Source: Atopomonas hussainii (lineage in GTDB: Bacteria > Pseudomonadota > Gammaproteobacteria > Pseudomonadales > Pseudomonadaceae). Taken from it: a DNA stretch of 64,000 nt. The DNA is taken from contig NZ_FOAS01000001.1 of assembly GCF_900109735.1 (NCBI RefSeq), forward strand, positions 1-64,000. The letters are read 5' to 3'. The notes below the pieces were generated by a model. It made no database searches. It was not told the origin of the DNA and saw nothing but the letters and a program-made list of their open reading frames with translations. Position 1 is the stretch's first letter, and every line of letters begins with the position of its first letter. Made by a program: the position numbers and the translations under genes. Positions 15,714 through 19,214 of the stretch are shown in pieces.

Positions 15714-17453
15714 TTACATGCGCTCCAGCGTTTCAATGCCCAGCAGGGCCAAACCTTGTTGCAGGGTACGCCCAGTCAAGGCGGCCAAGCGCAGGCGGCT
15801 GGCTTGTAGCTCGGGCGTCTCGGCGCTGGCAATCGGGCAATGCTCGTAGAAGCTGGAGAACAGCCCGGCGAGGTCATACAGGTAGGCACACAGCAGGTGC
15901 GGCACGCCTTTTTCGCCCACGTTGCGCAGCACATCGGCGAACTGCGCGAGCTTAGCGCCGAGCTCTTGTTCTTGCGCGGCTTGCAGGTTGATCTGCCCGT
16001 CCAGCTTGGCCGGGTCGCGCTGCAGCTTGCGGAAGATGCTCGCCACACGGGTGTAGGCGTACATCAGGTAGGGCGCGGTGTTGCCTTCGAAGCTGAGCAT
16101 CTGCTCGAAGTTAAAGCTGTAGTCGCTGGTGCGGTGCTTGGACAAATCCGCGTACTTCACCGCGCCAATGCCCACGGCACGGGCGATCTGGCGCAGTTCG
16201 GCGTCATCCAGCTCGGCGTTTTTGCCTTTCACCAGCGCGTAGGCGCGCTCTTCGGCCTCGACCAACAGGTCGATCAGCTTTACGGTGCCGCCGCTGCGGG
16301 TTTTAAACGGTTTGCCGTCGGCGCCGTTCATGGTGCCGAAGCCCATGTGCTCCAGGCTCATGTTCTCGCTAACAAACCCGGCCAGCTTGGCGACCTTGAA
16401 CACCTGCTGGAAGTGCAGCGCCTGACGCTGGTCGACGAAGTACAGCACGCGGTCGGCTTCGAGCTGCAGGCTGCGGTACTGCATGGCGGCCAAGTCGGTG
16501 GTGGCGTACAGATAACCGCCGCCGGCCTTTTGCACGATCACCGGCAGCGGATTGCCCTCGGCGTTTTTAAATTCGTCTAAAAACACGCACTGCGCGCCGT
16601 CGCTTTCGGTGAGCAAGCCTTTGGCTTGCAGCGCACTGACGATGCCCGCCAGCTCGGCGTTATAAGCGCTTTCGCCGCGTACATCGTCGCGGCTTAAGCT
16701 CACGTTGAGGCGCTCGTAGACTTCCTGACAATGGCTTAGGGAAATCTCGTTAAAGCGGTTCCACAGTTCTAAACACTGCGCATCCCCGGCTTGCAGGGCC
16801 ACCACCAGCTCGCGGGCGCGGTCGGCAAACGCTGGGCTCTCATCAAAGCGGCCCTTGGCGGCGCGGTAGAACACTTCTAGGTCAGCCAGCTCGGCGTCTC
16901 CGGCACTGCCTTGTTCTTCCATATAGGCCAGCAGCATGCCGAACTGGGTGCCCCAGTCGCCCACATGGTTCTGGCGAATCACGGTGTGGCCCAAGAACTC
17001 CAGCACGTGCGCCACGGCGTCGCCAATGATGGTCGAGCGCAGATGGCCGACGTGCATCTCTTTGGCGAGGTTCGGCGAGGACAAATCCACCACCACGCGC
17101 TGTGGCTCGTCGGCCAAGTTGATGCCCAAGTGCACGTCATTCAGCGCGGCATCTAAGGTGCGCGACAAGTATTGCTCGTCTTGGAAGAAGTTCATAAAGC
17201 CGGGGCCTGCCAGCTCGACCTTGGCGATGGCAGCATTGGCCGGCAGCGCGTCGACCAGCATTTGCGCCAAATCGCGCGGCTTTTTACCGGCCGGCTTGGC
17301 CAGCATCAGCGCAATATTCGAGGCGAAGTCGCCGTGACTTTTGTCCTTGGTGTTTTCCACCTGAATCTCAGGGTTTAGCTCAGCGGGCAGCACCTGCTGG
17401 GCTTTCAAGGTGTCGATGGCGTGCTGGATCAGCTGACGGATTTGATTCTTCAT
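15714..17453 (-). CDS. argS: Arginyl-tRNA synthetase
   Basis: 579 residues, class I synthetase that charges tRNA-Arg. The N-terminal additional domain is followed by the HIGH-equivalent motif ([17 protein letters not shown], about residues 129-145). The C-terminal DALR anticodon-binding domain ends the protein, with HCPIA and [12 protein letters not shown]. Full length for the family. It has a good promoter upstream and is followed by the SPOR gene. Confidence 0.97.
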
Positions 17454-17507
17454 ACACTCGCACTGGCTGGGCGGTGCTAACCGCCGGGCTGTAGGTTCAA
17501 AGCGCGC

Positions 17508-17535
17508 ATTATAAGGGATGCGTTTGATCTGTCAG
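17508..17535 (-). promoter_or_regulatory. argS promoter
   Basis: Minus strand: CTGACA at 535-530 of this kilobase (17535-17530), 16-base spacer, TATAAT at 17513-17508, then a GCGCGC discriminator. It lies 55 bases before the argS start codon and resembles the rrn promoters in spacing and discriminator. Confidence 0.7.
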
Positions 17536-17640
17536 CGCTTGGCCGCGCGTGTTTGTGCCGCAGGCCATTTTTCCGCGCTGCTCGCGGCCTGCGTGCACCG
17601 CTTCATCGACGAGCAAAGAGCACGCCCCGTGGTGAGCAAG

Positions 17641-17657
17641 AGCACCACAACAGTGCA
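17641..17657 (+). promoter_or_regulatory. Candidate NtrC-binding site upstream of urtA
   Basis: AGCACCACAACAGTGCA fits the NtrC consensus TGCACCANNNTGGTGCA at 11 of 14 fixed positions, with GCAC-N7-GTGC spacing intact. It is centred about 98 bases upstream of the start point predicted from the nearby -24/-12 promoter, a normal enhancer distance for NtrC. Inferred from sequence only. Confidence 0.45.
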
Positions 17658-17720
17658 CAGGCGCCTATTCCCCTACGCAAATCTCAGGCGAAGCCCTGCA
17701 AATTCAAGCAGTTAAAAACT

Positions 17721-17735
17721 TGGCATGGATGCTGC
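17721..17735 (+). promoter_or_regulatory. Candidate sigma-54 (-24/-12) promoter for urtABCDE
   Basis: TGGCATGGATGCTGC has the GG (17722-17723) and GC (17734-17735) with exactly 10 bases between them, as in the TGGCAC-N5-TTGC consensus. Transcription would start near 17747, about 196 bases before the urtA ATG and just before the inverted-repeat element. Confidence 0.45.
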
Positions 17736-17753
17736 GAAGCTCTGCGTGACCTT

Positions 17754-17886
17754 CTAGGGTCTGTTGTCGTTTCAGCACGACCGCGCCGGCGCTTGCCAAG
17801 GGGCCGCCATTACCTGCGTCCCGCGCCTAACCTAGCGCGATTTTTCGCAGCAACGCGGCTTGTGCTGAAACGACAACAGACCCTAG
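17754..17886. repeat. 133-bp element with perfect 25-bp terminal inverted repeats
   Basis: Bases 17754-17778 and 17862-17886 are perfect reverse complements, starting CTAGGGTCTG and ending CAGACCCTAG. They enclose 83 bases of GC-rich sequence with no ORF. The outermost CTAG is itself palindromic, so the ends could be read as 21-bp inverted repeats starting GGTCTG flanked by a CTAG duplication, as left by some IS5-type elements. This looks like a MITE, or else a very stable leader hairpin, between the candidate urtA promoter and the gene. Confidence 0.7.
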
Positions 17887-17942
17887 CCATTGTTCCAGAA
17901 CAGCGCATAACCCTTAAAACAAAGCCAGGAGGCTTGCTCAGT

Positions 17943-19214
17943 ATGAAACGCCGTCCACTGCTAAAAACCACCCTCGCTGCCAGCGCCTTAATGCTCAGCG
18001 GCCTGTTCCCGTTCACCGTGCACGCGGCCGACACTATTAAGGTCGGCATTCTGCATTCGTTGTCCGGCACTATGGCCATCTCGGAAACCTCGCTGAAAGA
18101 CATGGCCCTGATGACCATTGAGGACATCAACGCCAAAGGCGGCGTCAACGGCAAGATGCTCGAGCCGGTGGTGGTCGACCCGGCCTCGAACTGGCCGCTG
18201 TTCGCCGAGAAAGCCCGCCAACTGCTGACCCAAGACAAGGTCGACGTGGTCTTCGGCTGCTGGACCAGCGTGTCGCGTAAGTCGGTGCTGCCGGTGTTTG
18301 AAGAACTCAACGGCCTGCTGTTCTACCCGGTGCAGTACGAAGGCGAAGAAATGTCGCCCAACGTGTTCTACACCGGCGCCGCGCCAAACCAGCAAGCCAT
18401 TCCCGCCGTGGAATACCTGATGAGCGAAGACGGCGGCGCTGCCAAGCGCTACTTCCTGCTCGGCACCGACTACGTCTACCCGCGCACCACCAACAAGATT
18501 CTGCGTAGCTTCCTGCACAGCAAAGGCGTGGCCGACAAGGACATCGAAGAGGTCTACACCCCGTTCGGTCATAGCGATTACCAAACCATCGTGGCCAACA
18601 TCAAAAAGTTCGCTGCCGGTGGCAAAACTGCGGTGATCTCCACGGTCAACGGCGACTCCAACGTGCCGTTCTACAAAGAGCTGGCTAACCAAGGCCTAGA
18701 CGCTACCGAAGTACCGGTAGTGGCCTTCTCGGTGGGTGAAGAAGAACTGCGCGGCATCGACACCAAGCCGCTGGTCGGTCACTTGGCGGCGTGGAACTAC
18801 TTCCAGTCGGTCGAGAACGACGTCAACACCAGCTTTGTTGAGCAGTGGAAGGCCTACGCCAAGGCCAAGGGCCTAGCCAACGCTGAAACTGCGGTAACCA
18901 ACGACCCGATGGAAGCCACCTACGTGGGCATCCACATGTGGAAGCAAGCGGTGGAAAAAGCCGGCAGCACCGAGGTGGATAAAGTGCGCGCCGCGATGGG
19001 CGGGCAAAGCTTCGCCGCACCGAGCGGTTACACACTGAAGATGGACGAGAAAAACCACCACCTGCACAAGCCGGTGATGATTGGCGAGATTCAGGAAGAC
19101 GGCCAGTTCTCGGTGGTTTGGCAGACCGAAGGGCCGATCCGCGCGCAACCGTGGAGCCCCTTCATTGCAGGTAATGACAAGAAGCCGGACACACCGGTCA
19201 AGAGCGCCCAGTAA
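17943..19214 (+). CDS. urtA: Urea ABC transporter, substrate-binding protein
   Basis: 423 residues. The ATG at 17943 follows AGGAGG by 10 bases and starts a signal peptide with a KRR pair and a VHA cleavage site after A28; the frame is open further upstream, but that reads through the inverted-repeat element. The mature protein has the branched-chain-amino-acid/urea binding fold, with IKVGILHSLSGTMA and the FGCWTSVSRKSVLP and PVQYEGEE segments typical of UrtA/FmdD. It captures urea in the periplasm for UrtBCDE. Candidate NtrC/sigma-54 signals lie upstream, and a strong hairpin separates it from urtB. Confidence 0.95.
   Translation: MKRRPLLKTTLAASALMLSGLFPFTVHAADTIKVGILHSLSGTMAISETSLKDMALMTIEDINAKGGVNGKMLEPVVVDPASNWPLFAEKARQLLTQDKVDVVFGCWTSVSRKSVLPVFEELNGLLFYPVQYEGEEMSPNVFYTGAAPNQQAIPAVEYLMSEDGGAAKRYFLLGTDYVYPRTTNKILRSFLHSKGVADKDIEEVYTPFGHSDYQTIVANIKKFAAGGKTAVISTVNGDSNVPFYKELANQGLDATEVPVVAFSVGEEELRGIDTKPLVGHLAAWNYFQSVENDVNTSFVEQWKAYAKAKGLANAETAVTNDPMEATYVGIHMWKQAVEKAGSTEVDKVRAAMGGQSFAAPSGYTLKMDEKNHHLHKPVMIGEIQEDGQFSVVWQTEGPIRAQPWSPFIAGNDKKPDTPVKSAQ

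Follow-up and report, generated by a model that had tools for sequence, protein, structure and literature searches.

The segment in front of urtA in Atopomonas hussainii is an internally deleted copy of a non-autonomous transposable element (MITE), not a native leader. It lies in the window, the 64,000-nucleotide stretch of A. hussainii DNA that was analysed, and it is highly probable that it represents a shortened member of a MITE family with IS5-type ends, a core of nested palindromes, mobilisation in trans and arm-to-arm correction. A MITE in a leader is a plain kind of thing, but this one comes from an unusual family: the terminal features are those of an IS5-type MITE, and the novel part is a mirror-image core that covaries at the DNA level.

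The most visible feature of the segment is a pair of 25-nt arms (17754–17778 and 17862–17886), complementary at 25 of 25 positions with 83 nt between them, exactly as the earlier note had described. They form the sole inverted repeat of at least 12 nt reported between 17400 and 18200, and with about 320,000 position pairs in 800 bp divided by 4^25, no perfect 25-nt pair is expected there by chance. The element proper runs from TAG to CTA on the + strand (17755–17885) and measures 131 bp, the full length in the family usually being about 269 bp. Since CTAG is its own reverse complement, the outermost C/G pair counts as part of the arms yet lies outside the element. The left terminal inverted repeat (17755–17778, + strand) reads TAGGGTCTGTTGTCGTTTCAGCAC, the family consensus being TAGGGTCTGTTGACGTTT; the right one (17862–17885, − strand) is its perfect complement and bears the same T-for-A departure from the consensus. 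The predicted stem extends inward beyond 25 bp, to about 31 pairs with one bulge. Alignment by eye to full-length copies resolves the remnant core between the repeats (17779–17861, + strand) into the foot of arm 1 (17779–17791) fused to the 3′ part of arm 2 (17792–17861), across a gap of about 137 bp that takes in the middle hairpin together with most of arm 1 and the 5′ part of arm 2. Two of the features by which MITEs are known are present here, namely terminal inverted repeats (25/25 in the window copy; 98.0% of cells paired in helix 1 across the family) and a short sequence without a transposase gene, 131 bp being too small to encode one. A covariance model, R1, built from 50 full-length copies (alignment A1) with the window copy excluded, matched the segment with 60.5 bits on the + strand (E = 1.6e-18) and 51.5 bits on the − strand.

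The downstream gene (17943–19214, + strand, 423 aa) is urtA-like, with 18 orthologues 85–90% identical in the same family, and we take it to be urtA, which encodes the substrate-binding protein of a urea ABC transporter. It is preceded by a Shine-Dalgarno sequence, AGGAGG, at 17927–17932 (+ strand). The divergent gene further upstream (15714–17453, − strand) is called argS-like here, a name we assign from its sequence. A candidate sigma-54 promoter, TGGCATGGATGCTGC, is located at 17721–17735 (+ strand), and TGGCACGGATGCTGC occurs 5′ of urtA in 7 of the 18 orthologues (L045, L047, L048, L052, L053, L054 and L056), where the element is absent; this agrees with the position between a candidate sigma-54 site and urtA that had been proposed for the repeat. 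When applied to the 18 same-family urtA loci, R1 found the element in none of the leaders (0/18), and its sole other match there, some 1.2 kb upstream of urtA in L060, was weak and partial (12.9 bits, E = 0.004). A native urtA leader was rejected on this ground, and the comparison, made at the level of the family in a genome set where A. hussainii is the sole member of its genus, favours the earlier note's reading of the segment as a MITE.

The A. hussainii genome holds five R1 loci. Two relatives of the window copy, L002 and L006, are full-length (268 and 269 bp; 245.8 and 243.3 bits, both being part of the model alignment), and a third, L003, is 249 bp long, has the opposite orientation and scores 160.6 bits. 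The terminal arms of these three differ between copies, and within each copy they are complementary at 23 or 24 of 24 positions. L006 (1327–1595, contig C16) stands out by strongly deviating ends, TAGAACCTGCCCATTCCACATTC, complementary at 23 of 24 positions; no IS with ends of this type was found among the loci examined. A second shortened copy is located on the same contig as the window, outside it (L198; C26:113331–113497, 167 bp, 42.8 bits).

Counting A. hussainii, R1 matches are present in at least 28 of 57 genomes and at least 22 of 40 genera, and named genomes contain the exact 18-base arm in at least 120 stretches. One of the genomes, G002, has at least 34 scored R1 candidates (both strands counted), and 25 full-length copies were retrieved from it. 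The aligned full-length copies come from Pseudomonas, Stutzerimonas, Azotobacter, Halomonas, Vreelandella, Halopseudomonas, Acinetobacter, Agitococcus and Salinisphaera, and others from Vogesella, Deefgea and Iodobacter, which we take to be betaproteobacteria; in Nitrosomonas there were only arms without a partner and no arm pair was found. Related DNA is also carried on three plasmid records, two from Azotobacter chroococcum and one from Pseudomonas aeruginosa.

Among the 120 arm matches listed, 42 have a full-length pair (255–300 bp), 14 are arms-only palindromes (51–64 bp), 13 are shortened (65–254 bp), 6 measure 301–450 bp and 5 are IS-sized, and 40 have no partner arm in reach, 20 of these lying near the end of a stretch. 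The arms-only palindromes, which retain little or no core, include L083, L086, L098, L105, L117, L147, L152 and L163, and further ones are L170, L173, L175, L176, L181 and L184. The length range of A1 is partly a matter of choice, as full-length copies were preselected at 255–300 bp with at most four arm mismatches; a further 22, which came out of other searches, were picked manually. The resulting set of 64 leaves out L106:1855–2124, which has the ends of the family and a core largely not alignable with the others, and which is perhaps chimeric. Pair counts were restricted to copies of 262–273 bp, 52 distinct ones of the 64 (one duplicate was dropped), and A1 comprises 50 of these 52, without L101 and L172, whose arms are strongly different. 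These two (L101:5096–5362 from Parendozoicomonas and L172:5379–5644 from Endozoicomonas) have the same ends and a similar length and layout with a very different arm sequence, and perhaps represent a distant branch of the MITE family.

The fold of full-length copies consists of a terminal stem that encloses, in order, arm 1, a small CCC-NNN-GGG hairpin and arm 2. The consensus of the 50 copies has 89 pairs, 78 of them with at least one compensatory double change, and 94.6% of the cells are paired. Covariation amounts to 0.456, compared with 0.142 after shuffling (reached in 0 of 500 shuffles, a difference inflated by the relatedness of the copies) and at most 0.088 with slid partners, over which a structure derived from the same sequences is favoured. 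Pairs with double changes make up 21 of 22 in helix 3, 3 of 5 in helix 8, 16 of 16 in helix 9 and 7 of 9 in helix 10. Moreover, with the terminal stem removed, each of the 50 cores has a minus-strand match to its own profile (median 38.1 bits), and these matches span most of the core length in the examples displayed. The reversed-sequence control gave one minus-strand match in 50 copies (−2.1 bits) and seven plus-strand matches with a median of −0.2 bits. The two arms therefore look like mirror images of each other. Identity between arm 1 and the reverse-complemented arm 2 of the same copy is a weak test of this (median 0.495 vs 0.455 and 0.457, above both controls in 29 of 50 copies), the profile test being the stronger one. 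The core of the approximately 269-bp element can be described as palindromes inside a larger palindrome.

On its own strand, an RNA maintained by selection should show more G·U than A·C, and tRNA stems behave in this way: in 15 tRNAs from the same loci (those of 19 distinct predictions with a suitable length and at least 9 of 12 Watson-Crick pairs), the acceptor and T stems contain 168 Watson-Crick pairs, 12 G·T and no A·C. The stems of the 52 copies, counted by a strand-symmetric rule, give 2741 Watson-Crick pairs as against 25 G·T, 48 A·C and 41 mismatches of other kinds. As there is no preference for G·T over A·C, the pairing appears to be kept at the level of DNA. The excess of A·C over G·T (48 vs 25, p = 0.0095 with copies that are not independent) equals an excess of G·T on the opposite strand; we read it as noise or a weak bias, which nonetheless counts against full symmetry, and a weak RNA contribution from the opposite strand may be compatible with it. 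Two consensus pairs, columns 27/255 and 176/219, are mostly G·U.

The way in which the arms are kept matched was studied in close copies within one genome. The 25 copies from G002, 93.6–98.6% identical to their consensus, contain 33 compensated cells, a cell count inflated by shared ancestry, where about 0.8 would be expected if the two sides changed independently. Single changes account for 27 G·T, 38 A·C and 12 other cells, and unpaired sites differ at 4.1%. Counted as distinct changes, 13 are compensated, 8 of them private to one copy, and 43 are single, 33 of them private to one copy. For some of the compensated transversions neither intermediate is present in the group, and 5 of the 13 distinct compensated changes fall in arm 1 or arm 2. 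In G017, where 9 of 10 copies were used (L299, 80% identical to its group, was omitted), 5 distinct changes are compensated and 10 single, and in the five copies of G004 the numbers are 15 and 5; uncompensated changes thus outnumber compensated ones in G002 and G017, and the reverse holds in G004.

Selection sorts only the changes that mutation supplies. Independent mutation looks too small a source for these double changes, so the copying of one arm from the other would explain them, and the arms are most likely kept matched by such templated correction. Template switching between the arms of inverted repeats is described in the accessible portions of PMC7202029, PMC8604942 and PMC8794818. 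The window copy may itself bear a trace of it: at both ends it has a T-A pair where the 50 aligned copies show A-T (39), C-G (10) or a mismatch (1), a mark of the kind that arm-to-arm correction would be expected to leave. The earlier claim, that such perfection of the arms speaks for recent arrival or strong selection, is not supported in this family, whose arms change together with G·T no commoner than A·C, and in which closely similar copies have private compensated pairs.

That the fold itself is selected, with a three-armed DNA structure aiding movement or survival, for instance through hairpin recognition by a host or transposition protein, is a distinct if somewhat doubtful possibility. 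It would account for full-length copies (255–300 bp) being the largest class, 42 of the 80 with a partner arm among the matches listed, and coming from distant genera, for the pseudo-palindromic core seen in the 50 minus-strand profile matches, and for conserved columns outside the stems. However, copies that have lost the core exist, as the 14 arms-only and 13 shortened ones among the 120 matches listed demonstrate, and independent mutation should not furnish as many double changes as are seen for selection to act upon.

Judged by sequence, the ends of the MITE are of the IS5-family type. Five IS-sized elements of 841–862 bp (L134 has an alternative right end at 906) share these ends among the 120 matches listed, and all five match the IS5 family profile NF033580, for which the cut-off is 110 bits. 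L115 and L082 score 267.8 and 273.3 bits; L134 and L182 score 136.3 bits through one shared reading frame in a single Rhodobacteraceae assembly; and L112 is split over two broken frames with 121.2 and 88.7 bits. The IS5-type ends proposed in the earlier note are supported by these matches. A resident IS of G002, L236 (1400–2258, 859 bp), scores 275.8 bits and has the ends TAGGGTCTGTTCCCGTTTC. Its end variant, TTCCCG in place of the usual TTGACG, is common to three G002 MITEs in A1 (L024, L032 and L041), which is the best single piece of evidence that the ends follow the resident transposase. G002 also has a second IS5-type element with different ends, L241 (TTTATGAT vs TTCCCG in L236), the frame of which contains stop codons. 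The ends of the MITE could in principle switch between resident transposases.

The A. hussainii genome has no NF033580 match, and no IS with matching ends was found within it. In 13 element-rich genomes picked from the 28, eight have no NF033580 match at E <= 0.001 and five have one, only two of them over the cut-off. For the end variants TTAACACTACTC (G017 and G032), TAGAACCTGCCCATTCC (A. hussainii) and TTCCCG (G004), there was no matching IS among the loci examined, and G004, with its TTCCCG-type ends in L027 and L043, has no NF033580 match. By eye, the similarity between MITE and IS stops about 20 bp in from the end in the IS that were compared. An origin of the MITE core by internal deletion of an IS was considered and rejected, as R1 detected nothing in 11 transposase loci (from G002, G010, G017 and G032).

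The bases around the element point to a preferred target. In the 69 copies with TAG...CTA ends, to which the flank tally was confined, position −1 is C in 40 and T in 18 (58/69) and position +1 is G in 45 and A in 12 (57/69). The target would accordingly read YTAR, with TA on both sides of the inserted element and TA as the presumed duplication. In the window, the left edge C-TA-G spans 17754–17757, with one presumed copy of the duplicated dinucleotide at 17755–17756, and the right edge C-TA-G spans 17883–17886, with the second at 17884–17885; these assignments follow the YTAR flank statistics. The pair just inside TA, G3/C281, is invariant in 50 of 50 copies, 30 of which were found by a pattern containing that G. 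Taken as part of the element, this invariant pair makes a 4-bp CTAG duplication unlikely. The suggestion that CTAG at each end was a target duplication of an IS5-type event is thus upheld as to the type of the ends and not as to the duplicated length, the bases outside TA being variable. The unoccupied site of one insertion in G017 is present in G057 and G058, two of the three congeners, with junction bases so diverged that the duplication is not directly readable; the third, G032, matched only the left flank. A second insertion site, L038, had no match in the three congeners.

In a rival account, the arms are perfect through recent arrival, the element is an ordinary IS5-type MITE, and pairing throughout the family reflects the demand of the transposase for matching ends. 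The perfect terminal arms of the window copy, the match of the ends to IS5-type IS and the resident end variant of the G002 IS all agree with it. Yet the window copy is already internally deleted, and the A. hussainii genome has no other site within one mismatch of the 17-base arm pattern. Furthermore, covariation extends to core helices 3, 8, 9 and 10, which recognition of the ends does not need, and 5 of the 13 distinct compensated changes in G002 sit in arm 1 or arm 2. We therefore regard this account as unlikely.

The reading that we prefer, a trans-mobilised MITE with arm-to-arm correction, would operate as follows. An IS5-type IS would supply the transposase in trans, recognising the TAGGGYCTGTTNNCG ends, and insertion would take place at YTAR with TA duplicated; of this, the shared ends, the target bias and the unoccupied sites are observed, and the cutting and the duplication are inferred. 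During replication, the self-complementary arms would fold, and the polymerase would sometimes use one arm as the template for the other. A mutation on either side would thus be removed or passed to its partner, as the double changes without RNA-like wobble suggest, and the arms would stay matched while their sequence drifts, both ends being able to adopt a new transposase specificity jointly. The window copy retains both ends, the middle hairpin, part of arm 2 and the greater part of arm 1 having been lost. As no IS5_3 transposase was found in the A. hussainii assembly, this copy is probably inert there now.

A bolder version of this reading is tentative and rather doubtful: an undescribed non-autonomous element whose DNA fold, a closed stem with two mirror arms, is kept paired by continual template switching, its ends co-switching to the resident IS5-type transposase, so that one core would serve many transposases across beta- and gammaproteobacteria. 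If arm-to-arm correction is right, perfect bacterial inverted repeats prove neither recent insertion nor selection, and compensatory changes are no proof of an RNA. It also suggests a route by which a MITE could follow changing transposases, a change at one end being copied to the other. The family itself offers many closely similar natural palindromes per genome in which arm-to-arm correction can be measured.

REP and REPIN sequences are short palindromes tagged GTAG or CGTC, with an associated transposase. Among small mobile sequences in the literature, MITEPsy1 of Pseudomonas syringae is alike in being non-autonomous, in residing in Pseudomonas, in having ends like those of a resident IS5-family IS (ISPsy2) and in its CTAG/YTAA target; it differs, according to the available parts of PMC3189936, in its 100-bp length, its 18-nt ends (GGAAGGTCTGAAAAAGCC), a reported 4-nt duplication and a restricted distribution. 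The present family, in contrast, usually measures about 269 bp and has TAGGGYCTGTT ends, a presumed TA duplication, a covarying core and a wide distribution. MITEPsy1 was considered as the identity of the window element and rejected, since the ends differ from those in the accessible Table 3 of PMC3189936 and only TA is shared across the copies here. Correia/NEMIS, ERIC and other small mobile sequences are likewise short and dispersed, with inverted-repeat ends, terminal TA and stable predicted folds; in the portion of PMC2229807 at hand they are described as end-to-end stem-loops without arms, whereas the closing stem of the present family bears two long arms. The CIR element of Caulobacter resembles it in a two-armed predicted structure joined by a linker and conserved across species, but is described in that portion of PMC2229807 without an end-to-end stem, which in the present family is the terminal inverted repeat. 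MITEAba12, as presented in the available text of PMC6382973, shares with the present family a similarity to its candidate partner IS that is limited to the terminal repeats, and differs in its 111–114 bp, its 9-bp duplications and the little divergence among its copies. The nearest parallel to the proposed correction is the maintenance of hairpins with compensatory changes through template switching in DNA replication, which in the accessible part of PMC8794818 concerns RNA sequences, whereas our proposal concerns a bacterial mobile element. No description of this MITE family was found in open-licence PMC text, consisting mostly of titles and the beginnings of abstracts, and four end strings searched there gave no match.

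For the host, the outcome is that a MITE copy has come to stand between urtA and a conserved sigma-54-like site. If this site is used, the usual sigma-54 spacing would place the transcription start near 17747, and the element would begin about 8 bases into the mRNA. As the element lies just downstream of this predicted start, the urtA mRNA would begin with a hairpin of about 31 bp, which may be processed or act on stability. The predicted energy of the leader is −97.8 kcal/mol with the element vs −14.1 without it; the hairpin is self-contained in these predictions, and the Shine-Dalgarno sequence is similarly accessible with and without the element.

Co-option of the inserted hairpin to tune urtA, by way of mRNA stability or of processing by RNase III, as has been suggested for Correia/NEMIS transcripts, would suit its position right after the predicted sigma-54 start. 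A precedent for such an effect on an mRNA is the action of RNase III on NEMIS stem-loops, reported in the available portion of PMC2229807. On the other side, the predicted accessibility of the Shine-Dalgarno sequence is hardly altered, and the terminator-like matches at the element (17748–17761 and 17822–17839) are consensus matches only, so we consider co-option quite unlikely. A structured RNA or riboswitch in the urtA leader is highly improbable: it would fit the strong stem (−97.8 kcal/mol) predicted within the transcribed leader, but the element is absent from 18 of 18 same-family orthologue leaders and dispersed at other sites, lacks the wobble preference of tRNAs (25 G·T vs 48 A·C; 12 vs 0 in tRNA) and matches no Rfam family at gathering score. 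Rfam searches of 17450–18000 returned only two sub-threshold matches, to microRNA models, and those at the element in five loci gave no family at gathering score, only tRNA outside the element.

Two further observations concern the leader. Both terminator-like consensus matches are on the + strand and overlap the element, and one of them has an ATTTTT tail inside the remnant. In addition, the urtA frame is open upstream through the whole element (ORF 17553–19214, with 17553–17942 preceding the gene); as the start at 17943 fits the orthologues, this upstream open frame is probably due to chance.
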